Shown in pieces: positions 42,137 to 63,616 of a stretch of 64,000 nt of DNA; within the stretch, counting starts at the first letter, position 1, and every line of letters begins with the position of its first letter. The translations under genes and the position numbers were made by a program. The notes under the pieces were generated by a model. That model worked only from the letters and a program-made list of their open reading frames with translations, did no database searches and was not told the origin of the DNA. Source of the DNA: Sphingomonadales bacterium (GTDB lineage: Bacteria; Pseudomonadota; Alphaproteobacteria; Sphingomonadales; Sphingomonadaceae); assembly GCA_017309275.1 (NCBI GenBank), contig JAFKLT010000033.1, positions 48,325-112,324 of the forward strand, given 5' to 3'.

Positions 42137-42164
42137 TTACCCGAAATTGAACGCCGCTTACCTG
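42137..42164 (+). promoter_or_regulatory. Paired TTACCC boxes upstream of the FAD oxidase gene
   Basis: TTACCCGA at 42137 and TTACCTG at 42158 are direct repeats 21 bp apart (two helix turns), 80-100 bp before the ATG at 42238. They match the TTACCCGT boxes found before other units of the island. Confidence 0.5.
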
Positions 42165-42237
42165 CCGAAATTCTGGCCGCGCACCCCCTTCGGATGTTTC
42201 TGCTTGTCGCCACCCCGAAGCGACAAGGAAGCCGCGA

Positions 42238-43509
42238 ATGCCCGAAGAGAAGACAGCGGATCAGCGCCCGCCCTCGCCCCTTTCGCTGCGCCGCCGCGAC
42301 CTGCTGGGATCGTTGGCGGCGGTTGGCGCGATCGGCAGCGTCGCGAGGGCCGCGTCGGCGAAGGCGTCGACATCGGCGGCATGGGATTTCATCGTCGTCG
42401 GCGCGGGCGTGTTCGGCGCCTGGACGGCGTGGAACCTGCAGCGGCGCGGGAACCGGGTGCTGCTGCTCGATGCATGGGGACCCGCGCATAATCGCGCGTC
42501 GTCGGGCGGCGAGACGCGGCTGATCCGGACCGAATATGCCGGCAACGAACTCTATACACGCTGGGCATGGTCCTCGCTGGCCGAATGGCAGGACCTGTCG
42601 CGGCGGCACGAGCTGCCGATATTTCACCCGACGGGCGCGCTGTACATCTATCCCGCCGATGGCGCGAAGATCGACGAGAGCGTCGCGCTGCAACGAAGCC
42701 TCGGCATTCCCATAGAAAAGCTGACGCGCGCCCAAATGGCCACGCGCTGGCCGCAAATCGATTTCGACGGCATTGCGGTGGGCGTGCTGCAGCCGACGAT
42801 GGGGGCGCTGATGGCGCGCCGCAGCGTGCAGAATCTGGTTTCGGATTTCGTCGCGGCGGGCGGAACCTATCACGAGCTGGCGGTCGATCCGCCGCGATCG
42901 GACGGCGGGTCGCTGCGCACGATCAGCGGCGGCGGCGAGACGCTGAACGCCGGGCGCTTCGTCTTTGCGTGCGGCCCCTGGCTTCCCAAGCTGTTTCCCG
43001 AGGTCGTTGGCGGCCGGATCGTGCCGACGCGGCAGGACGTGTTCTTCTTTGCCCCCGACGCGGGCGACACACGCTTTCAGGCGCCGGCGATGCCCGCGTG
43101 GGTCGACGTCAGCAGCAAGGACCTGCACTACGGCTTTCCCGATATCGAGGCGCGCGGGTTCAAGATCGCGCTGGACGCGCATGGGCCGAAATATGATCCC
43201 GACGTCGCCGACCGGCGCGTGTCCGACCAGTCGCTGGCCGATGTGCGCGCCTATCTGGCGCGGCGCTTTCCGGCGCTGGCCAAACGGCCGCTCGCCGAGG
43301 GGCGGGTTTGTCAGTATGAGAATAGCGACAACGGCCATCTGCTGATCGACCGCCACCCGCAATGGAGCAATTGCTGGGTCGTCGGCGGCGGCAGCGGGCA
43401 CGGGTTCAAGCATGGACCGGCGGTGGGCCGCTATGTCGCCGATCTGGTGCTGGGCAGCGGCAGGGCCGAGCCCGACTTCACGCTGGCGGCGCACAAGGTG
43501 CATGGCTGA
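42238..43509 (+). CDS. Exported FAD-dependent amine/amino-acid oxidase
   Basis: 423 residues. A twin-arginine-like leader (SLRRRDLLGSLAAVGAIGSVARA) suggests export of a folded flavoprotein. The FAD site is DFIVVGAGVFGAWTAWNLQRRG, followed by SSGGETRLIRTEYAGNELYT, as in sarcosine oxidase and N-methyltryptophan oxidase (DAO family). The C-terminus closes with WVVGGGSGHGFKHGPAVGRYVADLV, shortened, which includes the site used in covalent or tight FAD binding. It would oxidise a secondary or primary amine of an amino acid. It heads a two-gene unit with an esterase and has TTACCC boxes upstream. Confidence 0.85.
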   Translation: MPEEKTADQRPPSPLSLRRRDLLGSLAAVGAIGSVARAASAKASTSAAWDFIVVGAGVFGAWTAWNLQRRGNRVLLLDAWGPAHNRASSGGETRLIRTEYAGNELYTRWAWSSLAEWQDLSRRHELPIFHPTGALYIYPADGAKIDESVALQRSLGIPIEKLTRAQMATRWPQIDFDGIAVGVLQPTMGALMARRSVQNLVSDFVAAGGTYHELAVDPPRSDGGSLRTISGGGETLNAGRFVFACGPWLPKLFPEVVGGRIVPTRQDVFFFAPDAGDTRFQAPAMPAWVDVSSKDLHYGFPDIEARGFKIALDAHGPKYDPDVADRRVSDQSLADVRAYLARRFPALAKRPLAEGRVCQYENSDNGHLLIDRHPQWSNCWVVGGGSGHGFKHGPAVGRYVADLVLGSGRAEPDFTLAAHKVHG

Positions 43510-43550
43510 AACTGATGGCCGAAACAGAGAGCTGAGACAGGGGGAATGGC

Positions 43551-44429
43551 ATGATCGGAATGGGCAGGACCGGCGCAGCGATCGCCGCCGCGGCGATGCT
43601 ATTCAGCGGACCGGCCGCGTCGCAGCAGGCCGACGTTCCCGCGGCGGCAGGCTATACGATGCCCGCGACGCAGGTGTGGGACATGACGTCCGATGTCGGC
43701 CGCAAGTATCGCATCTTCGTCTCCTACCCCAGCCAGGGCGAGCCGCCGGCGAACGGTTATCCGGTGCTGTACGTGCTCGACGGCAACGCCAGCTTCGCCA
43801 CTTTTGCCGAGGCGCGGCGGATCCAGGAATATTACGACATCGGCAAGGCGATCGTCGTCGGCGTCGGATATCAGACCGACATGCCTTATGCCGAAGAGCG
43901 GAACGAGGATTTCATCGTCATGGACAATCCGCCGCCGGGCAAGCGGCTGGGGCGGACCAAGGGCGGCAAGAGCGGGCGCGACGAGTTCCTGGATTTCCTG
44001 ACCGGCAAGCTGCGCACCGAACTGGGCAGCCGGTTCAAGATCAATCCCGATCGCCAAGCGCTGTTCGGCCATTCGTTCGGCGGGCTGTTCGCGCTCCACG
44101 CGCTCTACAACAAGCCGCAGGCGTTTCACTCGATCGTCGTCGCCAGCCCCTCGCTGGAACTCGATCAGGGCGTGCTGCGCGACGAGCGCGACTTCGTCTC
44201 GCGGCTGGAGGCGGGCAAGGTCGGCAAGACCAGTCGGGTGATGATCGTCGTCGGCGGACGCGACATCGACGACGATCCCGAACCCGCGCGCGCGCTGGCC
44301 GACCGTTTCGACCGGCTGTCGGGATATGGGCTGCGCGTCCGCTTCAAACGGTATGAGGAAGAGGGGCACATGACCGTGCCCGCGCGCGCGGTGACCGACG
44401 TGCTGCGCTTCGCCTTCGAGATACACTGA
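43551..44429 (+). CDS. Secreted alpha/beta esterase (Fes/IroE-like), copy 1
   Basis: 292 residues with a Sec signal (cleaved after PAASQ). The fold is that of the Esterase_D/IroE group: GYPVLYVLDGNASFATFAEA, nucleophile Ser in ALFGHSFGGLFALHALY, acid Asp near GGRDIDDDPE and His in EEGHMTVPARAV. Family members hydrolyse siderophores, S-formylglutathione or other esters. It is clearly paralogous to the gene at 60770-61636 (shared WDMTS, YRIFVS, YPVLYVLDGNA). It starts 41 bp after the FAD oxidase, probably in the same operon. Substrate unknown; since no siderophore genes are near, an ester or amide linked to the island's substrate is more likely. Confidence 0.83.
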   Translation: MIGMGRTGAAIAAAAMLFSGPAASQQADVPAAAGYTMPATQVWDMTSDVGRKYRIFVSYPSQGEPPANGYPVLYVLDGNASFATFAEARRIQEYYDIGKAIVVGVGYQTDMPYAEERNEDFIVMDNPPPGKRLGRTKGGKSGRDEFLDFLTGKLRTELGSRFKINPDRQALFGHSFGGLFALHALYNKPQAFHSIVVASPSLELDQGVLRDERDFVSRLEAGKVGKTSRVMIVVGGRDIDDDPEPARALADRFDRLSGYGLRVRFKRYEEEGHMTVPARAVTDVLRFAFEIH

Positions 44430-44441
44430 GCCGCCGCCGGG

Positions 44442-45782: not shown

Positions 45783-45892
45783 ATCTTCCCCATCGATCGT
45801 CCGCGCATCGCGTGCGGCCACTGCCCCGCGGACGATGCGTCCGCATGGAGCAAGGGCTCAACAGCCAGCTTCGCCAGCGCGAGGGGACCAGC

Positions 45893-46360
45893 TTATTTGC
45901 CGCGCTTGTTTTCCGCGCGCTGCCGGTCGATCTCGGCCACCCACTGGTCGGCGGTCAGCGGACCCGTGCCCTCGAAATGGACGTGGTCGGCCATTTTTTC
46001 GCGCACGTCGACGAAATAGAGCGCGCCGGTCGGCAGACCCATTTCCTTTGCCTTCGCCGCCATCGCCGCTTCCTGTTCGGCGGTCGGCTTGGGACGCGCA
46101 GGCTTGTAGAGGAGGACATCCCACCCCTCGCCCCCCGCATGCAGGAAAAGCTGCGTCGGCGGCTGTCCGCCCGCGATGCTGACCTGGTCCCATTTCGCCA
46201 TGTCGCGGATGAAATCCTCGGTCTTGCCGGGGACGAGGCGGAACATTTCGAACACCGGCGCAGTCATTTCGACCGCGGCCGGATCGGCCGCCTTGTCCTT
46301 GGCCGCGACCGGCGCGGAAAGGCTGAGAGCGAACAAGGCAAAACTTAGGCTGCGCAGCAT
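45893..46360 (-). CDS. Small secreted hypothetical protein
   Basis: 155 residues with a Sec signal (MLRSLSFALFALSLSAPVAA). The mature part (VEMTAPVFEMFRLVPGKTEDFIRDMAKW) has a ferredoxin-like ABM or NIPSNAP-type feel: a strand, then a helix with KTEDFIRDM, then LFLHAGGEGWDVLLYKP. No catalytic residues are seen. It is first of the two minus-strand genes here and has a TTACCCGT box about 84 bp upstream. Function unknown. Confidence 0.7.
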   Translation of the reverse strand: MLRSLSFALFALSLSAPVAAKDKAADPAAVEMTAPVFEMFRLVPGKTEDFIRDMAKWDQVSIAGGQPPTQLFLHAGGEGWDVLLYKPARPKPTAEQEAAMAAKAKEMGLPTGALYFVDVREKMADHVHFEGTGPLTADQWVAEIDRQRAENKRGK

Positions 46361-46443
46361 CGGGACCCTCCATCCTGTGATGACGCAGCCTGCCCCGCGC
46401 GCCCGGACGCGACAAGATGCGATGCGGGTCAGTAATCCACGAA

Positions 46444-46451
46444 ACGGGTAA
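46444..46451 (-). promoter_or_regulatory. TTACCCGT box before the secreted protein/amidohydrolase unit
   Basis: ACGGGTAA on the plus strand is TTACCCGT on the minus strand, 84 bp upstream of the ATG at 46360. It points toward that unit, as the other boxes point to their genes. Confidence 0.5.
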
Positions 46452-46489
46452 GTTCCGCCGCCGCCGCGGACGACGCAAGACGGTGCCCA

Positions 46490-46516
46490 TTACCCCTATC
46501 GCGCCCGATTACCCGT
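46490..46516 (+). promoter_or_regulatory. Paired TTACCC boxes before the cupin gene
   Basis: TTACCCCT at 46490 and TTACCCGT at 46509 are direct repeats 19 bp apart, about 90-110 bp before the ATG at 46602 and pointing to it. Confidence 0.55.
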
Positions 46517-46601
46517 TTGCGGCGGTTCCGGACGCTGGCGGTCTTTCGTAGCTTTGCGCCTTGGCGCCCGATGCGCCGCCCCTGGCAGGGAGGCCCCTTC
46601 G

Positions 46602-47090
46602 ATGGACGATATCAGCCGCCGCGCACTGCTGGCCGCCGCCGCGATCGGCACGATCGCAACCCCCGCGCTCGCCGCCACGGCGACCGCCGCGCGGCCGTCG
46701 CGCTTCAAGCTGGAACCGGGTTCGGAAGGGTTTCACAAATTCCAGGCCGTGCACGAGGGACTCGGGTCGATCGACGTGCGGCTGTTCGATTTCGGCGGCG
46801 CCCCGGCCCCCGCGAATTTCCTGATCTATGACATTCCCGTCGGCGCGAGCGAAGGCGTGCACCTGCACAATCTGTCCGACCCCGCGCTCGGCCCCTATGA
46901 CGAATATTATTATATCATCGAGGGGCGCGGAAAGATGACGATCGACGGCGAGGACATCCTCGTGTCCGCCGGCGACCATGTCTATGCCCCGCTCGATAGC
47001 TGGCGCGGTATCGCGAACATCGACGAGAAGGAGCATCTGAAGGTCTTTCTGACCTATATCGACCGCTCGCCCGGGTCGAAGCGCTCCTAG
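46602..47090 (+). CDS. Exported cupin protein
   Basis: 162 residues with a twin-arginine-like signal (ISRRALLAAAAIGTIATPALA). The cupin barrel shows motif 1 (EGVHLHNLSD, with two His) and motif 2 (GDHVYAPLDSWRG), with a Tyr-rich DEYYYIIEGRGKMTIDGED strand between. Metal-bound cupins act as isomerases, dioxygenases or sugar binders. GGGAGG lies 8 bases before ATG 46602; the longer frame from 46554 would put the signal inside. It has paired TTACCC boxes upstream, so it belongs to the island regulon. Substrate unknown. Confidence 0.83.
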   Translation: MDDISRRALLAAAAIGTIATPALAATATAARPSRFKLEPGSEGFHKFQAVHEGLGSIDVRLFDFGGAPAPANFLIYDIPVGASEGVHLHNLSDPALGPYDEYYYIIEGRGKMTIDGEDILVSAGDHVYAPLDSWRGIANIDEKEHLKVFLTYIDRSPGSKRS

Positions 47091-47111
47091 CCGCCGCCCT
47101 CTAGCCCGCCG

Positions 47112-50714: not shown

Positions 50715-51476
50715 TTATTTCAGCCTGGCGAGGTGCTTGATCGTAATCGCCGCCATTTCCGGGCGCCGTTCCAGGCAGCGCGACACCGGCCCGACCACGA
50801 CCACCGAAAGCAGGCGCTCGCCGCCCGGCAGCGGCAACGCGACGCCCGCGAGGTCGGGCGTGAACTCCGTATTGCTCTGATGCCAGCCCAGCTCGGCCGC
50901 CTCGTCCAGCCGCGCCTCGACCGCCGCGGCATTGGCGGGCGTGGTCGGCGAATAGCGGACGAAATCGATCTTGCGATACAGGCGCTCGCGCTCTTCGCGC
51001 GGCATCTGCGACAGGAGCGCGCGCCCCGCCGAGGTCGCGTGGATCGGCACCCGATCGCCGACCTTTGCGAAATAGCGCACCGGCTGCGGCGATTCGACGA
51101 CGTCGACGAAGGTCGCGTGGATTCCGGCGGGCGCCGAAATCGCAACCGTCTCGCCGGTCGCCTGCATCAGGTCGCGCGCCAGCCGCTGGAATTTTTCGGG
51201 CAGCGGCTCGGCCTGCGTCACCGCCTCCGCCAACACCAGCCAGCGCGGGCTGGGATAATAGCCGCCGCGTCCGCGCGGTTCGTAAAGATAACCCTTCGAC
51301 GCGAGCGTCGCGACGATCTTGAATGTGCTCGACCGCGGCCAGCCCAGATCCTCGGCCATCTCGGCCGCGGTGGCGGGGCGCAGCCGCTTCGCGAAATATT
51401 CCAGGATTTCCAGCACATTCGCGGCCTGCCGCACGATCATGATCTTGTTCGCCTGAAAAGGGTCGTGACGTCTCAT
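50715..51476 (-). CDS. IclR family transcriptional regulator
   Basis: 253 residues. The winged HTH (NVLEILEYFAKRLRPATAAEMAEDLGWPRSSTFKIVATLASKGYLYE, shortened) is followed by the IclR ligand domain: DLMQATGETVAISAPAGIHATFVD, HATSAGRALLSQM, SPTTPANAAAVEARLDE and VALPLPGGERLLSVVVVGP. IclR proteins usually control catabolic operons and respond to a pathway intermediate. It is inside the ALDH-SDR-MFS-M28 unit and probably controls it; a GGACA-TATT-TGTCC palindrome lies at its promoter. Confidence 0.92.
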   Translation of the reverse strand: MRRHDPFQANKIMIVRQAANVLEILEYFAKRLRPATAAEMAEDLGWPRSSTFKIVATLASKGYLYEPRGRGGYYPSPRWLVLAEAVTQAEPLPEKFQRLARDLMQATGETVAISAPAGIHATFVDVVESPQPVRYFAKVGDRVPIHATSAGRALLSQMPREERERLYRKIDFVRYSPTTPANAAAVEARLDEAAELGWHQSNTEFTPDLAGVALPLPGGERLLSVVVVGPVSRCLERRPEMAAITIKHLARLK

Positions 51477-52309: not shown

Positions 52310-53791
52310 TCAAGCCGCGAAGGGGTCGGGGAACCGCCCCGTCGTCGATACGATGGTGGTCTTGGTTTCGAGGAAGGGGTCGAGCCCTTCGATGCCGTTC
52401 TCGCGGCCCCAGCCGCTGGCCTTCACGCCGCCATAGGGGGTCGACCAGCGGATGTAGCGGTAGGTGTTGACCCACACCATGCCCGCCTCGATCCGCGCCG
52501 CGACGCGGTGCGCTCGGCCGGTGTCGCCCGACCACAGCCCGGCGGCGAGGCCATAGGGCGTCGAATTGGCGATCGCGATCGCCTCCTCCTCGTCGTCGAA
52601 GGGGATCAGCGCCGCGACGGGGCCGAAAATTTCCTCCTGCGCGATCCGCATGTCCGCCGACACGCCGGCAAACACCGTCGGCTCGACGAAATAGCCGCCC
52701 GCCATCCCGTCGCGGTCGATGCGGTGGCCGCCGGTGACGAGCTCGGCACCCTCACCCTGCCCGATCGCGACATAGGACAGCGTCTTGTCGAGCTGCTCGC
52801 GGTGCGCCTGCGGCCCCATGTGCGTCGCGGGGTCGAGCGGCATGCCGACCCGCACGCGCCCCGCACGCTCGCGAAACGCCTCGACGACGCGGTCATAGAT
52901 CGACCGTTCGACCAGCACGCGGCTGCCGAGCGCGCAGCTCTGCCCGCACAGCGCCCAGGCCGATCCCGTCGCCGCGTTGAGCGCATTGTCCAGGTCGGCG
53001 TCGGCGAACAGGATGTGCGGCGCCTTGCCGCCCAGTTCGAAGGTGCAGCGGGTCAGCGTGTCGGCGCCCGCCTTCAGGATCGTCTTCGCGGTCGTCCCTT
53101 CGCCGGTGAAGCTGATCTTCGCGACGTCCGGATGCTCGACCAGCGCCGCGCCGGCGACCGGGCCATCGCCCGGCACGACGTTGACGACGCCCGGCGGAAA
53201 GCCCGCCTCTTCGAACAGATGCGCCAGCGCGAGCGACGAGGCGGGGGTCTGCTCGGCCGGTTTCAGCACGACGGTACAGCCCGCCGCCAGCGCGGGCCCC
53301 AGCTTCCACGCCGCCGCCATCATCGGGACGTTCCACGGCGTGATCGCGCCGACGACGCCGACCGGGTGGCGCGTCGTGAAGGCGTGGACGCTGTCGTCCA
53401 TCGGGATCGTCCGCCCGCCCAGCTTGTCGGCGAGCGAAGCGAACCAGTGATAATATTGCGCGTGAAGGCTGATATCGCCGCGCGATTCGCGCACCGCGCG
53501 ACCGTTGTCGCGTGTCTCGACCTCTGCCAGCGCGTCGACGCGCGTCGCATAGAGGTCGGCGAACTTGCGCATCAGCGCCGCGCGCTCCCACGGCGGCATG
53601 CGGCGCCAGGGGCCCTCGAACGCCGCCTTCGCCGCCGCGACGGCCCGGTCGATGTCGGCGCGCCCGCCAAAGGCCACGTCGCCCCATGGCTGTCCCGTCG
53701 ACGGATCGATGCTGGGACGCACCCCGCCATCGATCGGGGCGACCCATTCGCCACCGATGAACAAGCGGTCAAATCGGAATTCGCCCATCAC
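52310..53791 (-). CDS. Aldehyde dehydrogenase
   Basis: 493 residues. The family motifs are all present: ITPWNVPMMAAAWKLGPALAAGCTVVLKPAEQTPAS (shortened), SFTGEGTTAKTIL, the general base Glu in FELGGKAPHILF, catalytic Cys in CGQSCALGSRVLVE, and EEIFGPVAALIPFDDEEEAI. It oxidises an aldehyde to an acid with NAD(P). The gene leads the five-gene minus-strand unit. A TTACCCAT box lies about 70 bp upstream, and a 14-bp palindrome lies at the core promoter. Confidence 0.95.
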   Translation of the reverse strand: MMGEFRFDRLFIGGEWVAPIDGGVRPSIDPSTGQPWGDVAFGGRADIDRAVAAAKAAFEGPWRRMPPWERAALMRKFADLYATRVDALAEVETRDNGRAVRESRGDISLHAQYYHWFASLADKLGGRTIPMDDSVHAFTTRHPVGVVGAITPWNVPMMAAAWKLGPALAAGCTVVLKPAEQTPASSLALAHLFEEAGFPPGVVNVVPGDGPVAGAALVEHPDVAKISFTGEGTTAKTILKAGADTLTRCTFELGGKAPHILFADADLDNALNAATGSAWALCGQSCALGSRVLVERSIYDRVVEAFRERAGRVRVGMPLDPATHMGPQAHREQLDKTLSYVAIGQGEGAELVTGGHRIDRDGMAGGYFVEPTVFAGVSADMRIAQEEIFGPVAALIPFDDEEEAIAIANSTPYGLAAGLWSGDTGRAHRVAARIEAGMVWVNTYRYIRWSTPYGGVKASGWGRENGIEGLDPFLETKTTIVSTTGRFPDPFAA

Positions 53792-53816: not shown

Positions 53817-53830
53817 GGACATATTTGTCC
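53817..53830. promoter_or_regulatory. Candidate IclR operator before the ALDH unit
   Basis: GGACA-TATT-TGTCC is a perfect 5+5 bp inverted repeat 26-39 bp before the ATG at 53791, in an AT-rich stretch. Its place over the core promoter fits repression, and an IclR gene sits in the operon. Confidence 0.45.
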
Positions 53831-53860
53831 CTATATAGAAATGAAAGTCAATCGAACGAA

Positions 53861-53868
53861 ATGGGTAA
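53861..53868 (-). promoter_or_regulatory. TTACCCAT box before the ALDH unit
   Basis: ATGGGTAA on the plus strand is TTACCCAT on the minus strand, 70 bp before the ALDH start and pointing to it. A single copy is seen; no second box 20 bp upstream. Confidence 0.4.
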
Positions 53869-53918: not shown

Positions 53919-56603
53919 CTATTGCATCCCGGCCGGGATCAGGCCTCGCTCGGCGGAAATACGCACGGCATCGCGCCGCTTGCTGACCCCGATCTTTCGG
54001 AAAACCGACTTCAGCCGATATTTCACCGTATCGGGCGACATGCCGATCAGCCGGGCGATTTCCTTGTTCGAATGGCCCTGCGAGAGATAGAGCAGAACCT
54101 CCGCCTCGGCCTCGCTGAACACGCCGAGCACGGTGACGTTGTTGCGATAGACGGCGAGCGACTTGGCGAGCGATTTCATGAACTGCGCGCGGAACCGGTC
54201 GATCTGACCCTCGGCCTGCAGCGCATCGTCGAGGCAGGGCTGGACGAACTGCCGCGCCTCAACGAACGGACGCACGATGTTCTGGAACATCGCGATCCCC
54301 ACCGCCTCGTCGAAGCAGACGCGCGCCTGGTCCCTCTCGCCCGTCATGCGCAGGCCTGCCGCGGCGAGGATGTTGACGTCGATCAGCAGGCGGCCCGCGC
54401 CATGCTGTTCCGCCCAGTCGCGCAGCTTCTGCAATTCCTCCAGCGCCAGCTCGACGTCGCCGACCAACAGGCGCAGCCGCGTGCGGCAAAGGCTCGCCGC
54501 GATCGCGACCGGGCGATAGGCGGGCGATTCCTCGTGCATCATGTCCGCGAGCGGATCGAGTCCGACGACCGCCGCAGCAGCCAACACCGCATGCGCCGGC
54601 GCGCCCTGCGATATCTGCAGTTCGATGCTGCAGATGTCGGCCAGCATTTCCAGCTGGCGCAGCCGCCGCCGCGCCGCAACCCGCCGCGCGCGCGCGATGA
54701 CGTCGCACGCCTCCTCGAATGCCCCCTCGCCCGCCAGCGCCCGCGCCTCGGTGAAATAGGCGGCGGCATAGACGTCGACCCAGCCGTCCGACTGTTCCAT
54801 GTGCGGCAGGGCCCAGGCCAGAAGTTCGCGCGCCTCGGTGACCATATCCTGTTCGAACAACAGCTCGGCCTTGAACGCCGCGCAATTCGCCGCGAGGTCG
54901 GAGCGGGCACCGTAATTTTCGGTGATGTTCGCGCAGGCCGCCAGCAGGATCTTTTCGGCCTCCCTCGACCGCCCCTGCGCCCGCTTGATCCGCGCTTCGA
55001 GAAAGCGGGTGAAGAGGTCGCTGTAAAGCGATCCGATCGCCAGATAATGATCGCGCGCCGCCAGCGTGGGCTGCAACGCGCGTTCGAGCCAGCCGCCCTC
55101 GAAATATTTGGCGCCCAGCGTCTCGCTGATGTTCGCGAGCACCAGATGATCGTTCGCCGGAAGCTTGCGCAGCAGCGCCTCGCGCGCGAGCAGATCGTCG
55201 AACGTCACCGGCTGGTTTTCGTAATCGGACAGCGTGTCGCCGACGACGCGAACCTCGGTCTTCAGGTCGACCGAAAGATCGGCGTCGCCGACCTGCGCCA
55301 GGAAAAGGTCGAATTCGGCGCGCGCGGACCCGAGTTCGCCCAGCTTGATCTGCAGATAGACCTGCGCAAGGGCGAGCTGTGGCCGCGTGCGGATCAACGG
55401 CACGGGCAGTTTCGCGAGCCCGCGCACGACGACGCCCTGCAGCCCCTGCGGGATCAGCCGCCAGCCGCCCGCCTCCTCCAATATTCCGGCGACGAGCAGG
55501 TCGTCGCCCGACAGGATCGCATGGTCGATCGCCTCGGCAACCTGTCCGCGTTCGGCGAACCAGCCCGCGATCCGGCGCTGGAGCGCGGCGAATTGCGCGC
55601 GATCGGACCGCTCGAACCGGTCGCGCAGATATTCGGCGAACAACTGGTGATAGCGATATTCGCGCCGTTCCCAGCTGACGGGCGACAGGAACACCCCCTG
55701 CTGTTCCAGCCGTTCCAGCACCATCCAGCCGTCCTGGCGATCGCACAACAGGTCGACCATTTCGCCGGTCAGCCGGTCGACGAGCGCGGTGCGCGCGACG
55801 ATATCGCGCGTTTCCTGCGGCAGCGTCATCAGCACCTGTTCCGACAGATAGCGCGCCAGATCGCTGCTGGTGCCGCAATATTCGTCGATGACGCGCTCGG
55901 CCTCCATGCCGCGCTTGATCGACAATGACGCGAGCTGAACCGCGATCGGCCACCCCTCGGTCCGGTCGAGCAAGGTGTCGATGTCGAGCGTTTCGAGCGG
56001 CCGGTCGGTGCGCGTCAGCAGGCATTCGGTCTCCTGCGCCGAAAAGCGCAGCTCGGCCGGGCCGATTTCCAGCAATTGCTCCTCGGCCGCGAGGATCGAC
56101 TGCCCGACCCACGGATAGTCGCGCGACGCGAAGAGGAAATGACAGCCCGGCGGCGCAAGCCGGACCAGCGATTCCAGAAACTGGCCGACGGGCTCGCTGA
56201 AGGCGTGATGCAGATCGTCGAGGATCAGCACGACCGGCGTGTCGGCATCGCCAAGTTCGTTGATGATTGCCGACAGGGCCGCGCGGGGCGGCAGGTCGCT
56301 CGGCGCGCCCTTGCCGTCGTCGCCGTCGTGATTGCGCTGAAGCGACAGCAGCAGATATTTGACGAAGCGCTTGAGATCGCGGTCATCGCGCTCGAGCGTG
56401 AGCCACGCGACCCGCGCCGCGCCGGGGTCCAGGCTGTCGCGCCACTGTGCGAGAAGGCTGGTCTTGCCATATCCGGCCGGTGCATGGACCAGCGTCAGGC
56501 GATGGTTCAGCACGCCCCCGAGCCGACCGAGAAGCAGGTCCCGGCGGATCTGGTCGCCCATCCACATGGGCGGAACGAACTTGGCGGCAATCAAGTCCTG
56601 CAT
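53919..56603 (-). CDS. Large LuxR/MalT-type STAND ATPase regulator
   Basis: 894 residues from ATG 56603. The NTPase part has Walker A in APAGYGKTSL (about 41-50) and Walker B in VVLILDDLHHAF. A long TPR-like helical part (about 380-800) follows, and the C-terminal LuxR HTH is EAEVLLYLSQGHSNKEIARLIGMSPDTVKYRLKSVFRKIGV (shortened). MalT-type proteins bind ATP and an inducer, multimerise and activate promoters through direct repeats. It diverges from the HyuA operon, with paired TTACCC boxes in the gap, so it is the best candidate regulator of the island. An upstream start in the same frame would add 24 residues, Arg-rich and unlikely. Confidence 0.92.
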   Translation of the reverse strand: MQDLIAAKFVPPMWMGDQIRRDLLLGRLGGVLNHRLTLVHAPAGYGKTSLLAQWRDSLDPGAARVAWLTLERDDRDLKRFVKYLLLSLQRNHDGDDGKGAPSDLPPRAALSAIINELGDADTPVVLILDDLHHAFSEPVGQFLESLVRLAPPGCHFLFASRDYPWVGQSILAAEEQLLEIGPAELRFSAQETECLLTRTDRPLETLDIDTLLDRTEGWPIAVQLASLSIKRGMEAERVIDEYCGTSSDLARYLSEQVLMTLPQETRDIVARTALVDRLTGEMVDLLCDRQDGWMVLERLEQQGVFLSPVSWERREYRYHQLFAEYLRDRFERSDRAQFAALQRRIAGWFAERGQVAEAIDHAILSGDDLLVAGILEEAGGWRLIPQGLQGVVVRGLAKLPVPLIRTRPQLALAQVYLQIKLGELGSARAEFDLFLAQVGDADLSVDLKTEVRVVGDTLSDYENQPVTFDDLLAREALLRKLPANDHLVLANISETLGAKYFEGGWLERALQPTLAARDHYLAIGSLYSDLFTRFLEARIKRAQGRSREAEKILLAACANITENYGARSDLAANCAAFKAELLFEQDMVTEARELLAWALPHMEQSDGWVDVYAAAYFTEARALAGEGAFEEACDVIARARRVAARRRLRQLEMLADICSIELQISQGAPAHAVLAAAAVVGLDPLADMMHEESPAYRPVAIAASLCRTRLRLLVGDVELALEELQKLRDWAEQHGAGRLLIDVNILAAAGLRMTGERDQARVCFDEAVGIAMFQNIVRPFVEARQFVQPCLDDALQAEGQIDRFRAQFMKSLAKSLAVYRNNVTVLGVFSEAEAEVLLYLSQGHSNKEIARLIGMSPDTVKYRLKSVFRKIGVSKRRDAVRISAERGLIPAGMQ

Positions 56604-56689: not shown

Positions 56690-56719
56690 TTACCCATCTT
56701 CGCCGGGAGCATTACCCGT
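56690..56719 (+). promoter_or_regulatory. Paired TTACCC boxes before the HyuA operon
   Basis: TTACCCAT at 56690 and TTACCCGT at 56712 are direct repeats 22 bp apart, 90-120 bp before the GTG at 56809 and pointing to it, in the gap shared with the MalT-like regulator. Confidence 0.55.
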
Positions 56720-56808
56720 CCGCGGTCCGATGCACCCGTTTTACGCGTTGCGCGCCCCCATCCCCACCAGTGTAATCGATCGCGAAGAAGCTGCGGGAGG
56801 AAGTGCTG

Positions 56809-58407
56809 GTGCGCATTGGTGTCGACGTCGGGGGAACCAACACCGATGCGGTCCTGATTGCGGAGCGCCGTGTGGTTGCATCGACGAAGCAGCCGACCAG
56901 CCCCGACGTCAGCACCGGCGTAACGGCCGCAATCGGCGCCATATTGGCCGATGCCGGCGTCTCGGCCGGGCAGGTGAGCGCCGTGATGATCGGCACGACC
57001 CATTTCACCAACGCGCTGGTCGAACGCGAGCGCCTCGACCGTGTCGGCATCATCCGCCTGGCAAGTCCGTCGGGCGAGGCGCTGCCGCCGCTGACGGGTT
57101 GGCCCGACGCGCTGGCCCGGCAGCTCGAGGGCGCGACGTTTCTTCTCCCGGGCGGTTACGAGGTCGACGGGCGCGAGATTTCGGCGCTGGACGAAGGCGC
57201 GGTACGCGCCGCCGCACTCGATTGCCGCGCCCAGGGGATTCGGAGCATCGCGGTCAGCTGCGCCTTCGCCCCGATCAACGCGGCGATGGAGGATCGCGCG
57301 GCGCAAATCATCGCCGACGCGCACCCCGACGCGAGCATCAGCCTGTCGCACAGCGTCGGGCGGCTCGGCCTGATCGAACGCGAGAACGGGACGATCCTGA
57401 ACGCCGCGCTGGCCACCCTCGCGCGCCATGTCGTGACCTCGCTCGAACGCGCGCTCGCGCAGCTCGGCATCACGGCGCCGCTGTACATCTCGCAGAATGA
57501 CGGGACGCTGATCTCTGCCGCCGACGCCGCGCGCTACCCGGTCCTCACCATCGGGTCGGGGCCGACCAACAGCATGCGCGGCGCGGCCTTTCTGACGGGC
57601 GTCGACGACGGCATCGTCATGGACGTCGGGGGAACGACCTGCGACATCGGGGTGCTGGCCAACGGCTATCCGCGCGAATCCTCGATCGCGGTCGACATCG
57701 GCGGGGTCCGCACCAATTTCCGCATGCCCGACATTCTGGCGATCGGGCTGGGCGGCGGGACGCGGATCCATGTCGGGGCGAGCGGCGACGAGGTGACGAT
57801 CGGGCCCGATTCGGTGGGCTTTCGCCTGACGCAGGATGCCTATCTGTTCGGCGGATCGACGCTGACCGCCAGCGATGTTGCGGTGGCGGCGGGCAAGGCG
57901 GACTTCGGCGACGCGGGCAGGATACCTTCGCTGACCCCGTCGCTGAAGAGCGCCATCCTTGACCGGATCGCGACGATGCTGGCCGACGGGATCGACCGGA
58001 TGAAGACCCAGCCCGGCGACGCGACGATCATCGCGGTCGGCGGCGGCCATTTCCTGATCGACGATGATCTGAAGGGCGCGGCGCGCGTCGTCCGCCCCGA
58101 CCATGCGTCGGTCGCCAACGCCGTGGGCGCAGCGATCGCACAGATCGGCGCGCAGGCCGAGCGCATCGTCGATTATGACGCCGAACCGCGCGCGACCGCG
58201 CTGGAACAGATGCGCGAGATGCTGCTGGCGCGCGTCGCCGCCGCGGGCGCGACGCCCGAAAGCGTCGAGATCGTCGACATGGACGAGGTGTTTCTTTCCT
58301 ATCTGCCGGGCCGGTCGGCCCAACTCCGCATGAAGGCCGTCGGCAGCCTGGCCGATGACATGAAGCGGGCCGACGCGCCGCTTTCGGAGACCCCCCATGT
58401 ATATTGA
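56809..58407 (+). CDS. Hydantoinase/oxoprolinase family protein (HyuA-like)
   Basis: 532 residues. The ASKHA-type ATPase fold opens IGVDVGGTNTDAVLIAERRVVA, followed by IGTTHFTNALVERERLDRVGIIR, IENGTILNAALATL-like ERENGTILNAA, and the second metal/ATP part VMDVGGTTCDIGVLANGYPRES and GGVRTNFRMPDILAIGLGGGT. These proteins use ATP to open cyclic amides such as hydantoins or 5-oxoproline. It is the short form (full HyuA about 690) that pairs with DUF917. Start GTG 56809 has GGAGG eight bases upstream; the GTG at 56803 is too near. It overlaps the DUF917 gene by 11 bp. Confidence 0.9.
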   Translation: MRIGVDVGGTNTDAVLIAERRVVASTKQPTSPDVSTGVTAAIGAILADAGVSAGQVSAVMIGTTHFTNALVERERLDRVGIIRLASPSGEALPPLTGWPDALARQLEGATFLLPGGYEVDGREISALDEGAVRAAALDCRAQGIRSIAVSCAFAPINAAMEDRAAQIIADAHPDASISLSHSVGRLGLIERENGTILNAALATLARHVVTSLERALAQLGITAPLYISQNDGTLISAADAARYPVLTIGSGPTNSMRGAAFLTGVDDGIVMDVGGTTCDIGVLANGYPRESSIAVDIGGVRTNFRMPDILAIGLGGGTRIHVGASGDEVTIGPDSVGFRLTQDAYLFGGSTLTASDVAVAAGKADFGDAGRIPSLTPSLKSAILDRIATMLADGIDRMKTQPGDATIIAVGGGHFLIDDDLKGAARVVRPDHASVANAVGAAIAQIGAQAERIVDYDAEPRATALEQMREMLLARVAAAGATPESVEIVDMDEVFLSYLPGRSAQLRMKAVGSLADDMKRADAPLSETPHVY

Positions 58408-59503
58408 CCATGCGACCGAGCTTCAGGATCTGGCGCGCGGCGCGGCCTTTCTGGGGTCGGGCGGCGGCGGCGATCCCTATTACAGCCTTCTGCTGGCCGA
58501 GGCGGCGCTCGCGCGGCGCGGGCGGTTCGAACTGATCCCGCTGTCCGAGGTCGCCGACGACGCGCTGCTGGCCCCCTGCGGCTGGATCGGCGCACCGACC
58601 GTGTCGGTCGAAAAGCTGCCCAACGGCGGCGAGGCGGTGACCGGGCTGCGGCGGCTGGAAGAGATCATGGGCAAGCGGATCGACGCGGTGCTGCCGATCG
58701 AGATCGGCGGCGGCAATGGCCTGGCCCCATTCATCGCGGCGGCCGAGCTCGGCATTCCGGTGGTCGATTGCGACGGCATGGGCCGCGCCTTCCCCGAATC
58801 GCAGATGGCGATCTTCAACATTCGCGGGCTGTCCGCCTGTCCGTCGGTGCTGACCGCCGCCGACGGATCGCTGAGCGTCATCGAGACCGGGGACAATCTG
58901 ACGCACGAACGCATCGCGCGTGCGCTGGCCGTCTCGCTGGGCGGGATCGCGCACATGGTCGAATATCCGCTGAGCGGCGCCGAGGCCAAGGCGCACGCCG
59001 TGCCCGGCAGCGTCAGCGCCGCGATCGCCGTCGGTCGCGCGATCCGCGAGGCGCGCGGCGCGGGCGGCGATCCGTTCGACGCGCTGGCACAGGCGCTGGA
59101 GGCGACCGGCCTCTATCCCCATTGCCTGTCGCTGTTCGACGGAAAGATCGTCGACCTGGAGCGCGAAACACGCGGCGGCTTTTCGGTCGGCAAGGTGACG
59201 ATCGACGGCTTCGGCGGCGGCGGCCGGATGGAGATCGAGTTTCAGAACGAGAATCTTGTTGCCGAAAGCGACGGAAAAATCCTGGCGATGGTCCCGGACA
59301 TCATTACGGTGATGGACCGCGACACGGCCGACACGATCACGACAGAAAAGCTGAAATATGGTCAGCGCGTGAAAGTGATCGCCGCCGCGTCGCCCGCGAT
59401 ATTGCGCGACCCCCACGCGCTGTCGTTCGTCGGCCCCCGCGCCTTTGGCATGGAGTTCGACTTTGCGGCCGTTGAAACATTGAACCTGACGGAGAAGGCA
59501 TGA
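58397..59503 (+). CDS. DUF917 family protein
   Basis: 368 residues. DUF917 features are clear: ELQDLARGAAFLGSGGGGDPYYS, IEIGGGNGLAPFIAAAELGIPVVDCDGMGRAFPE, ERIARALAVSLGG and the C-terminal HALSFVGPRAFGMEFDF. DUF917 proteins are linked to HyuA-like enzymes, sometimes fused, and are thought to form the second half of the ring-opening system. The 11-bp overlap with the HyuA gene and the 4-bp overlap with the permease gene mark a tight operon. The exact reaction is not known. Confidence 0.9.
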   Translation: MYIDHATELQDLARGAAFLGSGGGGDPYYSLLLAEAALARRGRFELIPLSEVADDALLAPCGWIGAPTVSVEKLPNGGEAVTGLRRLEEIMGKRIDAVLPIEIGGGNGLAPFIAAAELGIPVVDCDGMGRAFPESQMAIFNIRGLSACPSVLTAADGSLSVIETGDNLTHERIARALAVSLGGIAHMVEYPLSGAEAKAHAVPGSVSAAIAVGRAIREARGAGGDPFDALAQALEATGLYPHCLSLFDGKIVDLERETRGGFSVGKVTIDGFGGGGRMEIEFQNENLVAESDGKILAMVPDIITVMDRDTADTITTEKLKYGQRVKVIAAASPAILRDPHALSFVGPRAFGMEFDFAAVETLNLTEKA

Positions 59504-60753
59504 GCGCAGCTGGCGGGGGTAATTATGCAAGCGGGCCGCTGCCCGAAGAGCTGACCATCCCCGGCTGGCGGGTCGCGCTGATCATCGCGAGCTTTACATT
59601 CTCGCTGCCCGGCTTTCTCAACAATGCGCAGGCGGGGCTCGCGCTCGGACTGGGGCCCGCCGTCCTCGCCTCGCTCCTCGCCGGTCTGATCCTGTGTGCC
59701 GGCGCGTGCCTGACCGCGGTGGTCAGCGTGCGCACGCGCCTGACCACCTATCTGCTCGTCCAGCGCTCGTTCGGCATATGGGGCGCCGCGCTCGTCAACA
59801 TCGTGATCGCCATCATCCATTTCTGCTGGTTCGGGGTGAACGTGTCCTTCTTCGGCGACGCGATGGTCGCCGCGGCGCAGCAGGGGTACGGCATTCCCGG
59901 CAATTTCCACTCCTTCGTCGTCATCGGAAGCATCATCATCACGCTGTCGACGATCTGGGGCTTTCGAACGCTGGACCGGCTCGCGATGATCGCGGTGCCC
60001 TTTGTCGGGGTCATCCTGATCGCAGTCTGCGTGCAGGCTCTCGGCGCGAATCCGTCGCCCGACCTCGGCGCGGTCGCGCGGCCGCCGGCTCCCATGAGTT
60101 TCGGCATCGCGCTCTCTTCGCTGGTCGGCGGCAATCTGCTGACCGTCGCGGCTATGCCGGATCTTTCGCGCTTCATCCGGACCGAGCGCGGGGCGGTGTC
60201 GGGCATGCTCCTGTCCTTTCCGATCTGCGCGCCGATCATCATGCTCGTCTCGGCGCTGATCGCGCTCGCGACGGGACAGACCGACATCATGAAGCTGGTC
60301 GTCGCGATGGGTTTCGGGCTTCCCGCACTCGCGATGCTGGTCCTGTCGGTGTGGACGATCAACGCGCTGAACCTCTATTCCGCCGGCCTCTCGATGGCGG
60401 CGACCTTTCCGCGGCTCAAGCAAACGGCGATCATCGTCATCGGCGGCGCGATCGGGTGCCTTTTCGCGCTGCTCGGCATCATCAACGGTTTCATCCCCTT
60501 CCTGATCGCGCTTGGCCTGATCATTCCGCCGATCGCCGCGATCTACGTGATCGATGCCTTCCTGACCTTTCGCGGGCGGGACGAGGTGCCGACCGTCCCG
60601 GTTCGCTGGGAGGCGATCGGGGTGTGGCTGGGCAGCCTGCTCGTCACCTTTCCCGCGATGCATTTCGGCTGGACGCTGACGACGGTCCCCGCGCTCGATG
60701 CGACGATCCTCGCGGCGGGCGCCTATATCGCCGTGCTGCGCCTGCGCCGCTGA
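59500..60753 (+). CDS. NCS1 cytosine/hydantoin-type permease
   Basis: 417 residues, 12 transmembrane helices, CodB/purine-cytosine permease group. PGFLNNAQAGLALGLG in helix 1-2, LLVQRSFGIWGAALVN, WFGVNVSFFGDAM and GGNLLTVAAMPDLSRFIRTERGAV (shortened) follow the NCS1 pattern. These carriers bring in nucleobases, hydantoins or allantoin with Na+ or H+. It overlaps the DUF917 gene by 4 bp, so it very likely imports the substrate of the HyuA-DUF917 system. Confidence 0.9.
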   Translation: MSAAGGGNYASGPLPEELTIPGWRVALIIASFTFSLPGFLNNAQAGLALGLGPAVLASLLAGLILCAGACLTAVVSVRTRLTTYLLVQRSFGIWGAALVNIVIAIIHFCWFGVNVSFFGDAMVAAAQQGYGIPGNFHSFVVIGSIIITLSTIWGFRTLDRLAMIAVPFVGVILIAVCVQALGANPSPDLGAVARPPAPMSFGIALSSLVGGNLLTVAAMPDLSRFIRTERGAVSGMLLSFPICAPIIMLVSALIALATGQTDIMKLVVAMGFGLPALAMLVLSVWTINALNLYSAGLSMAATFPRLKQTAIIVIGGAIGCLFALLGIINGFIPFLIALGLIIPPIAAIYVIDAFLTFRGRDEVPTVPVRWEAIGVWLGSLLVTFPAMHFGWTLTTVPALDATILAAGAYIAVLRLRR

Positions 60754-60769
60754 CGAAGGGCCGCGCGCC

Positions 60770-61636
60770 ATGAGATCGATCGCCGTGGCTCTCGCCCTCG
60801 CCATCATCGCGCAAACGCCCGTTGCCGCGGCTGTGGCCGATGCGGCGCCATACACGCTGCCCGAAACCGAGAGCTGGGACATGACGTCGGCGGCGGGCGA
60901 GACCTATCGCATCTTCGTCTCGCGCCCCGCCGGGCCCGCGCCAGAGGGCGGCTATCCCGTCCTCTATGTGCTCGACGGCAATGCGATGTTCGCGGGCTTT
61001 GCCGAAACGCGGCGCGTGCGGGGGTTCGGCGGACGCGATCCGGGCGGGCTGATCGTCGTCGGCATCGGCTATCCCGGCGACCAGGTCTATGACCCGCGTC
61101 GGATGCGCGATTTCACCGCGCCCATCGCGACGCCCACGCTGAAACAGCTCTACGCCGCCTATCCTTCGGGCGGCCGCGACGCCTTTCGCGCCTTCCTGCT
61201 CGGCGAGCTGAAGCCCGCGATCGCCGCGCGCTATCCCGTGCATCCCGGGCGCCAGGCGCTGTACGGCCATTCGCTGGGCGGCCTGTTCGCGCTCCATCTC
61301 TTTTATTCGCAGCCCGGCGCTTTCGACACGATCATCGCCGCCAGCCCGTCGATCTGGTGGGACGATCAGGCGATCCTGGGCGAAGAGGCCGCGTGGCGCG
61401 CACGGGTGGGCAAGGACGGCGCCTCGGCGCACGGCACCCGCCTGCTGCTGATCGCGGGCGCGCTCGAAACCGATGCTTCCATCGCACAGGACAGCGCCGC
61501 GCTGGCGCAGCGCCTCGCCCCGCTGTCCGCCGCCGGGCTGCGCAGCGAGCTACTGCTGCTCGACGGCGAGACGCATATCACGGTGCCGCACCGGTCGATC
61601 ACCGCCGCGCTCCGCGCCGCGACGCGCTGGCCCTGA
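60770..61636 (+). CDS. Secreted alpha/beta esterase (Fes/IroE-like), copy 2
   Basis: 288 residues with a Sec signal (cleavage after PVAAAVA). The Esterase_D/IroE-type fold carries GYPVLYVLDGNAMFAGFAETR, nucleophile Ser in ALYGHSLGGLFALHLFY, acid Asp in the AGALETD region and His in DGETHITVPHRS. It is a paralogue of the gene at 43551-44429 (same WDMTS, YRIFVS, YPVLYVLDGNA, GHS-x-GGLFALH). It starts 16 bp after the permease stop and so ends the HyuA operon. It may free the substrate from an ester outside the cytoplasm. Confidence 0.84.
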   Translation: MRSIAVALALAIIAQTPVAAAVADAAPYTLPETESWDMTSAAGETYRIFVSRPAGPAPEGGYPVLYVLDGNAMFAGFAETRRVRGFGGRDPGGLIVVGIGYPGDQVYDPRRMRDFTAPIATPTLKQLYAAYPSGGRDAFRAFLLGELKPAIAARYPVHPGRQALYGHSLGGLFALHLFYSQPGAFDTIIAASPSIWWDDQAILGEEAAWRARVGKDGASAHGTRLLLIAGALETDASIAQDSAALAQRLAPLSAAGLRSELLLLDGETHITVPHRSITAALRAATRWP

Positions 61637-61640
61637 CGGC

Positions 61641-63380
61641 TCAGCGCGCGGGCGCCTGCACCGTCGCCAAGTCGCCGAACACCGGCTTGCCCTCGAACAG
61701 CGTGACCAGCACCTTCGTCTTCGAAATCTCGTAGACCGGCAGGTTGAAGATGTCCTTGTCCAGCACCACCAGGTCGGCGCTCTTTCCGGTCTTGATCGAC
61801 CCCGTGACCGCGTCGAAGCCGTTCACATAGGCGACGTTGATCGTGTGGCTTGCGATCGCTTCCTTCAGCGAGACGCCCTCCGCGGGCAGCAGCGGCTTGG
61901 CGTTCGGGTCGCCCGCCGTCCGCCGCGTTATCGCCACCTCGATCCCCTCCAGCGGGTTCGCGCCGCCGACGGGCCAGTCGGCGCCATAGGCCAGCTTGCC
62001 GCCAGCGCGGACGATGCTGCCCGCCGGATAGATATATTCGGCGCGCTTCGGCCCGATCGCGGCGACGGTCAGGTCCATATAATCGTACCACGACGCCCAG
62101 GTCGGCTGGAATTGGGCAAAGGTCGACAGCTTGCCGAAACGGGGCTGATCGGCGGGGTCCACGACGTTCATGTGCGTGATCATGTGATGCGTCGGCTTCG
62201 CGCCGTTCGCCTTGCGCGCCGCCTCGATCGCGTCGAGCGAGATGCGCACGCCTCCGTCGCCGATCGCGTGCAGAAAGGCGTGCATGCCGTGGCCGTCGAC
62301 CGCGGTGACGGCCTGCTTCAGCACCTCGGGCGCGATCTGCGGCGTGCCGCGCTCGTCGCCGCTGTTTTCATAGGGCGCGAGCATATAGGCGGTCTTCTGC
62401 GGGATCACCCCGTCGACATAGAATTTGACCGTGTGGGTCGAAATGCCCAGGCTGTTCGCGCGCTCGGCGGCGCGGAGCAGGCCCGGAAGCTGGTCCATGC
62501 CGCGCTCGTTCTTCCACTTCAGCGATACCGCGACGTGGCTGGTCAGCTTTCCTGCGTCGAGAACGGCCTTGTAGGCGTCGACCATCGGGCTGCCGCCATT
62601 GTCGTCATATTCGACGCCGGCATCGTTCCAGCTTACGATCCCCAGGCTGTTGAAATGGTCGGCGACATAGAGGATCGAGTTCTGGATTTCGGTCGCCGAC
62701 GGCGGCGGGATCATGGGCTTGACCAAATCCATCGCGGCTTCCTGAAGGCTGCCCACGGGTTCGCCGGTCGCGGGGTCGCGGTCGATCGTCCCGTTCGGCG
62801 GATCCTTGGTATCGCGGGTGATCTTTGCGACCTCCAGCGCCTTGGAATTGAGCCAATAGGTGTGGCCGCCGGTGGATTCAAAGATCAGCGGGCGCGTCGT
62901 CGACACCTTGTCGAGCAACTCCTTGCGCGGAATGCCGTTCGGCGGGAACAGCGCATCGCTCCAGCCGATGCCATATACCGCGCCGTCGCCGGGTACCGCC
63001 GCGACGCATTTGGCGATCAGCGCCTGATAATCCTCGATCGTCTTGCCGTCCTGCAGCGGGCAGCGCGAGCGGCTGAGCGCCCCGAACAGCGGGTGGACAT
63101 GCGCATCGCCAAAGGCGGGAAGCACCAGCCGGCCGCCCAGGTCGACGGTCCGCGTCGACGCACCGCGCAGCTTGCCGACCGAGGCGCTGCTGCCCACCGC
63201 GACGATCTTGCCGTCCTTGATCGCCACCGCTTCAGCCCAAGGCTGCTTGTCCTCGACGGTATAGACGCGCGCGTTGGTCAGGATCAGGTCGGCCGAAACC
63301 TTGCCCTTGGCCTGCGCGACCGCGCTCGCCGAAAGAGCCAGGGCCGCGACCAGAGCGGCGGAGACGACAGGTTTCGACAT
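61641..63380 (-). CDS. Exported amidohydrolase family 3 (YtcJ-like)
   Basis: 579 residues with a Sec signal (cleavage after ASAVAQA). The amidohydrolase barrel is of the long YtcJ/D-aminoacylase-like type: FGDAHVHP (metal His pair), the ESTGGHTYWLNSKAL motif, the HTVKFYVDGVI strand with metal Lys, HAIGDGGVRISLDAI, ITHMNVV and YGADWPVGGANPLEG (metal Asp). The tail GKSADLVVLDKDIF is typical. GGGAG precedes ATG 63380. It opposes the esterase gene and shares the 305-bp promoter gap with the HTH gene. Likely hydrolyses an N-acyl or cyclic amide compound in the periplasm. Confidence 0.9.
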   Translation of the reverse strand: MSKPVVSAALVAALALSASAVAQAKGKVSADLILTNARVYTVEDKQPWAEAVAIKDGKIVAVGSSASVGKLRGASTRTVDLGGRLVLPAFGDAHVHPLFGALSRSRCPLQDGKTIEDYQALIAKCVAAVPGDGAVYGIGWSDALFPPNGIPRKELLDKVSTTRPLIFESTGGHTYWLNSKALEVAKITRDTKDPPNGTIDRDPATGEPVGSLQEAAMDLVKPMIPPPSATEIQNSILYVADHFNSLGIVSWNDAGVEYDDNGGSPMVDAYKAVLDAGKLTSHVAVSLKWKNERGMDQLPGLLRAAERANSLGISTHTVKFYVDGVIPQKTAYMLAPYENSGDERGTPQIAPEVLKQAVTAVDGHGMHAFLHAIGDGGVRISLDAIEAARKANGAKPTHHMITHMNVVDPADQPRFGKLSTFAQFQPTWASWYDYMDLTVAAIGPKRAEYIYPAGSIVRAGGKLAYGADWPVGGANPLEGIEVAITRRTAGDPNAKPLLPAEGVSLKEAIASHTINVAYVNGFDAVTGSIKTGKSADLVVLDKDIFNLPVYEISKTKVLVTLFEGKPVFGDLATVQAPAR

Positions 63381-63537
63381 AGTCACTCCCGATAGGGCTG
63401 GAGCGGACCTTGTTGCAGGTCGCGCCTTGGATGGACACAAAATAGCGCGCGTCGGCGCCCTCCCCGGCACCGCCCGGACGGGCCGGTGCACGCCTGCTAT
63501 AGAACCGCAAGCGGGCCGCGGATCGAAGCCGGATTTG

Positions 63538-63564
63538 GGGGTAAGCCGGCCGAAAGACGGGTAA
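63538..63564 (-). promoter_or_regulatory. Paired TTACCC boxes toward the amidohydrolase
   Basis: Minus-strand TTACCCC (63538-63544) and TTACCCGT (63557-63564) are direct repeats 20 bp apart, 158-184 bp before the ATG at 63380. Confidence 0.5.
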
Positions 63565-63608
63565 GCGCAGCGGGCCACCCGATGCCGCTTCCCCAATATT
63601 GCCCGATC

Positions 63609-63616
63609 TTACCCGT
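63609..63616 (+). promoter_or_regulatory. TTACCCGT box toward the HTH gene
   Basis: Exact TTACCCGT on the plus strand, 77 bp before the ATG at 63686. Confidence 0.5.

Follow-up and report, generated by a model that had tools for sequence, protein, structure and literature searches.

A catabolic island in the draft genome of a Sphingomonadales bacterium carries tandem boxes with the core TTACCC, and comparisons among genomes make it very likely that these boxes are the operators of the island's own LAL regulator, a MalT-like protein of 894 residues encoded at 53919-56603 on the minus strand. The window analyzed is a stretch of 64,000 nucleotides (G000:C30:48325-112324; assembly GCA_017309275.1) from a 5.1-Mb draft genome, and its end is the end of the contig. 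An initial reading of the window (the original prediction) had proposed that a motif, TTACCC(G/A/C)(T/A), is shared by the promoters of a 22-kb island under a MalT-like activator. The motif is shared, but the regulon proved larger than 22 kb. Regulation by the 894-residue protein is supported by comparison, as the boxes follow its orthologues while the octamer TTACCCGT occurs at chance level beside relatives of 25-35% identity.

The likely reader of the boxes has the Pfam domains AAA_16/AAA_22, TPR_MalT and GerE. Its STAND/AAA ATPase portion (AAA_16, AAA_22) has a Walker motif, A41-P-A-G-Y-G-K-T-S49, that is invariant in eight orthologues, and residues 4-416 match the MalT structure 8bob (E 4.8e-49). 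The MalT-type TPR domain (PF17874) narrowly passes its threshold, with 46.6 bits vs a cut-off of 45. At the C-terminus lies a LuxR/GerE helix-turn-helix (HTH) domain (PF00196, E 2.1e-12), whose matches among solved structures are the HTHs of ComA, VraR and NarL. Besides the LAL protein, an IclR, a MocR-type and a TetR regulator are encoded in or beside the island; of these regulators, by sequence comparison, the LAL protein is the one tracking the boxes across alpha- and gammaproteobacteria.

Four promoters of the window carry box pairs in direct repeat. A TTACCC/TTACCT pair lies at 42137-42163 (+) before the FAD (DAO) oxidase gene starting at 42238, a second pair at 46490-46516 (+) before the cupin gene at 46602, and a third at 56690-56719 (+) before the core target operon at 56803-60753 (+), which by Pfam encodes a HyuA-type hydantoinase, a DUF917/S-Me-THD protein and a NCS1-type permease. 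The fourth, at 63537-63564 (-), precedes the amidohydrolase 3 gene (PF07969; 61641-63380, -) and consists of TTACCCGT at 63557-63564 and TTACCC at 63539-63544. Their spacings of 21, 19, 22 and 20 bp, respectively, or about two helical turns, agree with the 19-22 bp originally given. Single boxes are found before the aldehyde dehydrogenase (ALDH) gene at 52310-53791 (TTACCCAT, 53861-53868, -), before the gene of a secreted protein of 155 residues at 45893-46360 (TTACCCGT, 46444-46451, -, with a degenerate TGACCC about 20 bp further) and 77 bp before position 63686 (TTACCCGT, 63609-63616, +). The gene beginning at 63686, originally called simply an HTH gene, is the start of a MocR/GntR-type gene cut by the contig end. 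Boxes lie 77-184 bp upstream of the predicted gene starts, close to the 70-180 bp first estimated. The five exact octamers that had been listed, at 46444(-), 46509(+), 56712(+), 63557(-) and 63609(+), are all present. Nine boxes in the gaps that had been named fit the degenerate pattern; the two assigned to 42158 and 63538 fall outside it, the former reading TTACCT and the latter being TTACCC at 63539-63544 (-) followed by CC.

These boxes are far more frequent in the window than expected by chance. TTACCCGT occurs six times vs 0.35 expected, a count reached in none of the 100 shuffles, so the one or two chance occurrences assumed at first were too many; five copies are in island promoters and one is at 14171, outside the island. 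The degenerate pattern occurs 11 times vs 1.63 expected, nine of the 11 within the named gaps. Genome-wide, TTACCCGT is found 29 times vs 104 for the reversed control; the genome is therefore not rich in the octamer overall, which is concentrated at the island. By our own gene calls all five island sites are intergenic, as are eight of the 24 remaining sites in the genome. Pairs of the form TTACC-N12-18-TTACC number 12 in the genome (reversed control 38), with four in the island of the window and one at C83:2366 on another contig, and the five genomic matches to TTACCC-N13-16-TTACC occupy those five sites, all in the island when its C83 part is included. A 28-bp pattern with one fixed spacing had no match.

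The MocR/GntR-type gene provides the connection to C83. Its start occupies 63686-63952 of the window, and a matching later part, found by searching with the full-length MocR-type regulator of a related genome, opens the other contig (G000:C83:1-1236). Because the gene is split in this way, we infer that C83 adjoins C30, in which case the five strict pairs would fall in a single island of roughly 32 kb. Following the MocR part, C83 encodes a PepSY_TM-like protein, a protein of 209 residues whose gene is preceded by a box pair, a FAD-protein relative and a TonB-receptor-like protein; further boxes are at 8067(-) and 8114(+), and the island runs to about 9.5 kb. A second MocR relative (84% identical to that of genome G201) is encoded at G000:C39:20037-21497, adjoining TonB-receptor- and PepSY-like genes; that locus has one intergenic TTACCC and no pair.

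Evidence for the assignment comes from 79 LAL loci, 41 with orthologues of the regulator (47-91% identity) and 38 with paralogues (25-35%). The orthologue loci include Sphingopyxis, Sphingomonas, Novosphingobium, Sphingosinicella, Caulobacter, Phenylobacterium, Henriciella, Niveispirillum, Pseudoxanthomonas, Luteimonas and Steroidobacter. Against first-order Markov shuffles, which also served for the island-region counts and for loci outside the TTACCC clade, the orthologue loci contain 72 TTACC tandem pairs vs 0.5 expected, with at least one in 33 of the 41, and the paralogue loci contain six vs 1.4 expected, in five of the 38. Similarly, TTACCCGT occurs 80 times vs 5.2 expected beside orthologues and seven times vs 7.5 beside paralogues. 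When all 4096 hexamers were scanned without bias for same-word pairs 19-22 bp apart in the 35 loci of at least 55% identity, TTACCC and its complement ranked first, with 70 pairs vs 0.2 expected from other spacings. Same-strand TTACC spacings in these 35 loci are 19 (six), 20 (16), 21 (36) and 22 bp (13), and no other distance between 6 and 80 bp occurs more than twice; of 61 opposite-strand partners within 120 bp, 49 are back to back.

Scored pairs in the 41 loci are intergenic in 79 of 79 cases at a coding density of 0.829, where an overlap of up to 60 bp with the end of a called gene still counted as intergenic. Genes in the relatives were called with a home-made codon-score caller, and their starts are approximate. 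The next co-directed gene is most commonly HyuA (28), followed by a TonB receptor (22), amidohydrolase 3 (five), the 209-residue protein gene (four), cupin (three), the secreted protein (two), an esterase (two) and the oxidase (one). In 15 genomes of this set, 33 of the 41 TTACCC-N13-16-TTACCC pairs are in the regulator locus or within 10 kb of it, the reversed control giving 18 in total.

Conservation within the family gives the same picture. Among 298 family genomes, this one included, seven encode an orthologue of the regulator (54-100% identity), the next matches being at 26-34%; six further members of the genus gave no match at E 1e-60. HyuA of at least 63% identity is encoded in exactly the same seven genomes, with the next relatives at 46-55%. 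In the 40-80 kb extracted around the regulator in the six other genomes, the gene order is rearranged and the boxes remain with their genes. HyuA is preceded by a box in each of the six (in G221 by one TTACCC on its own), ALDH by a single box in G201, G085 and G150, and amidohydrolase 3 by a box in G201, G221 and G011; by our gene calls, the ALDH box of G085 and G150 overlaps the first bases of a divergent gene. The oxidase has a box upstream of it in G201 and a pair in G085. G201 also has a pair before its cupin gene and, upstream of its secreted-protein relative, the box layout of the window, while Pfam-checked TonB receptors have a box in G085, G221, G011 and G225. G201 encodes one regulator orthologue of 82% identity and another of 75%, separated by about 41 kb (G201:C1:4344068-4388005; L081-L084), and box-bearing genes lie both between the two and next to them. 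In total, 23 of the 28 strict pairs of the seven genomes are within the extracted island regions. The three-box pattern TTACCC-N14-16-TTACCC-N13-16-CACCC has seven matches in the 298 genomes, six at HyuA promoters and one on C83; it is found in six of the seven regulator-positive genomes (G221 is without the first box) and in none of the 291 others, and its reversed control has no match. The original prediction was to fall if the motif proved equally common in unrelated intergenic regions; from the paralogue loci, the intergenic scoring and the three-box search, it is not.

The octamer with one mismatch is found 20 times in the window vs 15.5 expected, a count reached in 18 of 100 shuffles, and the signal therefore resides in the exact core. 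Several observations weigh against assigning the boxes to the LAL protein. In this genome the reversed control of TTACCC-N13-16-TTACC is commoner than the pattern itself (seven vs five), and in the island of the window taken alone GGCGCG scores slightly above TTACCC in the hexamer scan (six vs 0.9 expected, compared with three vs 0.0). Eight of the 41 orthologue loci are without a strict TTACC pair, and for 12 of the 79 pairs no gene start was called in the next 450 bp. Strict pairs also occur away from the regulator, five of 28 in the seven family genomes and eight of 41 in the 15 genomes of the second set. Genome-wide pair counts alone fail to separate regulator-positive from regulator-negative genomes, the regulator-less G109 reaching 10, and clustering and the three-box pattern were used for that reason. 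That pattern was derived from HyuA promoters in regulator-positive genomes, and the information it gives is therefore confined to its absence elsewhere. The two genome sets overlap, L146, L147, L154 and L162 being again the loci of G085, G150, G221 and G011; most loci were retrieved via the regulator itself, and related loci are not independent of one another.

The boxes could instead be sites of an unlinked global regulator or an alternative sigma factor, with the LAL protein merely carried along in the island; the pairs lying away from the regulator would fit this, and linkage by itself cannot prove which protein reads a box. We consider this unlikely, however, as the three-box pattern is absent from all 291 family genomes without a LAL orthologue, and which box variant is used, T or C at the first base, follows the LAL tree. 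Tandem boxes 19-22 bp apart and far upstream of the -10 element are also unlike a sigma-factor promoter. The TetR encoded at the island edge is found in none of the 41 orthologue neighborhoods.

A MocR/GntR-type reader, encoded from 63686, is still less probable. MocR proteins such as GabR bind direct repeats, the MocR/GntR-type gene itself carries a box, and five of the seven regulator-positive family genomes have MocR relatives. However, the box-bearing G085 and G150 have none at E 1e-40, and a MocR is near only five of the 41 orthologue loci. Equally improbable is the IclR regulator encoded at 50715-51476, even though its orthologues (59-100%) are in all seven regulator-positive family genomes and a strict pair adjoins the IclR gene of G306. 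Of 15 genomes with TTACCC pairs, four have no IclR match at E 1e-15 and three have only relatives of 27-29%, and IclR is near 17 of the 41 orthologue loci. On this distribution across box-bearing genomes, both proteins were rejected as box readers. A better candidate site for IclR is a separate palindrome of the GGGACA-TGTCC type in the ALDH promoter, GGGACAAATATGTCC at 53817-53831 (-), between the ALDH box and gene. Similar but imperfect palindromes are in the ALDH promoters of G201, G085 and G150; the pattern has one match in the window vs 0.13 expected, a count reached in 13 of 100 shuffles, and an IclR site here is possible. A chance cluster, to which the unenriched one-mismatch octamer and the unseparated genome-wide counts might point, is refuted by the shuffles, the orthologue/paralogue contrast, the unbiased hexamer scan, the intergenic placement and the three-box search, and its probability is negligible.

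With the LAL protein as the probable reader, the promoter geometry is as expected for an activator. Sixty-six thinned promoters fall into two classes, class A (21, mainly HyuA) and class B (45, with two boxes). In class A promoters the second box is followed at 20-23 bp by a third and degenerate one, xCACCCGTTT, and then in most cases by TTGC(G/A)C. With a -10 matrix, the score averaged over sequences is best at +39/+40 counted from the last box, which is box 3 in class A and box 2 in class B. The HyuA promoter of the window is of class A: its boxes at 56690 and 56712 are followed by the degenerate GCACCCGT at 56732-56739 (+), a predicted promoter at 56748-56776 (+) with TTGCGC at 56748-56753 and, at the matrix peak, TGTAAT at 56771-56776, and the gene start at 56803. 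For amidohydrolase 3 the predicted -10 element is TTCTAT at 63499-63504 (-). The fixed distance to the -10 element, with boxes upstream of -35, suggests a protein that contacts RNA polymerase. The TPR sensor of the LAL protein would bind a small molecule, which is probably the substrate or one of the intermediates, and the ATP-bound protein would oligomerize, placing its LuxR-type HTHs next to one another on the head-to-tail boxes, upstream of -35, and recruiting RNA polymerase in a MalT-like manner. The ALDH run may carry an added layer of IclR control through its own palindrome.

The box itself varies with the regulator. In six Steroidobacter-type orthologue loci (47-49%) CTACCC pairs replace TTACCC, and 44 loci outside the TTACCC clade have 18 (C/T)TACCC pairs vs 0.5 expected, present in 14 of 19 loci with a HyuA neighbor vs one of 25 without. 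Ten of the 18 pairs are 46-123 bp before HyuA on the same strand, and the other eight, including those of four Steroidobacter-type loci, are not. In a quick tree with long branches and box labels set by hand (L183, with TTACCC pairs away from HyuA, is labeled as having none), which leaves out L152, L184 and others without a C-terminal match, the 32 TTACCC rows and one cut contig (L161) form one clade; the CTACCC rows surround it, except for two at a greater distance. All 33 rows of that clade have D at residue 859 and 13 of 14 CTACCC rows have N, and L207, with a mixed CTACCC/TTACCC pair, has D; this pattern may reflect shared descent alone. Tentatively, there may be an ancient HyuA-linked LAL family across Proteobacteria with one grammar, (C/T)TACCC boxes in twos or threes at 19-22 bp. 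In one branch the first base would have gone from C to T along with a change from N to D at residue 859, just before the recognition helix, and the family would sense a class of cyclic amides that enter through TonB receptors. This larger scenario is conceivable rather than probable. Among 12 actinobacterial LAL loci there was no (C/T)TACCC pair signal.

Other repeats were seen beside other LALs. The HyuA relatives of L109, L111 and L113 (G279, G140 and G220), linked to other LALs, are preceded by two direct copies, 20-22 bp apart, of AACCTACT, AACCTCCT or CCACCC; these are possibly further operator variants of HyuA-linked LALs. Looser T(T/C)ACC pairs number 52 vs 17.1 expected over the 38 paralogue loci; L201, L214, L215, L216 and L219, from Caulobacter sp. 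S45, Rhodococcus, Mycolicibacterium and Mycobacterium, have three to seven vs fewer than one expected each.

The box-bearing promoters serve the HyuA-DUF917-permease operon, TonB receptors, amidohydrolases, the oxidase and the ALDH run. Besides the regulator, the 41 loci encode DUF917/S-Me-THD proteins (38 loci), HyuA (37), amidohydrolase 3 (35), NCS1-type permeases (35) and TonB receptors (31). In the part of the literature seen, DUF917 proteins have been suggested to be hydantoinases (PMC11055893). The program may serve to take up a cyclic amide and open its ring, candidates being hydantoins, thiohydantoins and diketopiperazines; a literature search on the substrate found no matching gene cluster. 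For a group of uncharacterized MalT-like ATPases, from Sphingopyxis to Caulobacter, Pseudoxanthomonas and Steroidobacter, the analysis provides a candidate operator, a promoter geometry and a target list, and it ties HyuA-DUF917 enzymes to TonB-dependent uptake. The natural variants TTACCC and CTACCC offer material for studying DNA selection by LuxR-type HTHs.

Repeated boxes under LAL activators have precedents (MalT, TpdR and the Actinoplanes MalT). The present operator and regulon appear to be undescribed, neither having been found in open-licence PMC articles. Escherichia coli MalT shares the layout of STAND ATPase, TPR sensor and LuxR-type HTH and, in the portions consulted, has directly repeated sites upstream of several operons belonging to a single program (PMC6099782, PMC7567727); it has been modeled as an ATP-dependent multimer (PMC6389857, as far as seen). 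Unlike the MalT box GGGGA(T/G)GAGG, which is described there as overlapping -35 (PMC7567727), the boxes here are TTACCC, with the last starting 39-40 bp before the -10 element, and the targets are amidohydrolases, HyuA and permeases rather than maltose genes. The window has no exact MalT box; with one mismatch there are 16 vs 10.4 expected, a number reached in four of 100 shuffles, and one of the 16 falls at 56756-56765, within the HyuA promoter region. MalT boxes were rejected as the island's sites. In Actinoplanes sp. SE50/110 a single MalT-like activator likewise has a common motif upstream of 17 start sites across a large non-maltose region, but that motif is a palindromic TCATCC-5-GGATGA over -35, in another organism with other gene content (PMC7567727, in the part seen). 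TpdR of Rhodococcus jostii TMP1 is likewise a LAL activator of a catabolic operon whose direct repeats are needed for promoter activity; in the sections available these are two 15-bp repeats at a single, methylpyrazine-induced promoter, and a multi-operon box set is not described there (PMC6099782). The proposal of a MalT-like activator was supported by comparison and refined, in that HyuA-type promoters have three boxes and the box partly resembles the NarL heptamer rather than the MalT box. The NarL/NarP heptamer TACYYMT, as given in the excerpt seen (PMC4886647), is read by NarL members of the family to which the HTH of the LAL protein belongs; TACCCAT is a fit and TACCCGT, the commonest form here, misses one position. 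NarL heptamers can form an inverted repeat (PMC6099782, in part), an arrangement not found among the island's same-strand pairs, whose boxes stand head to tail at 19-22 bp, and NarL is a response regulator while the island LAL protein is a STAND ATPase.

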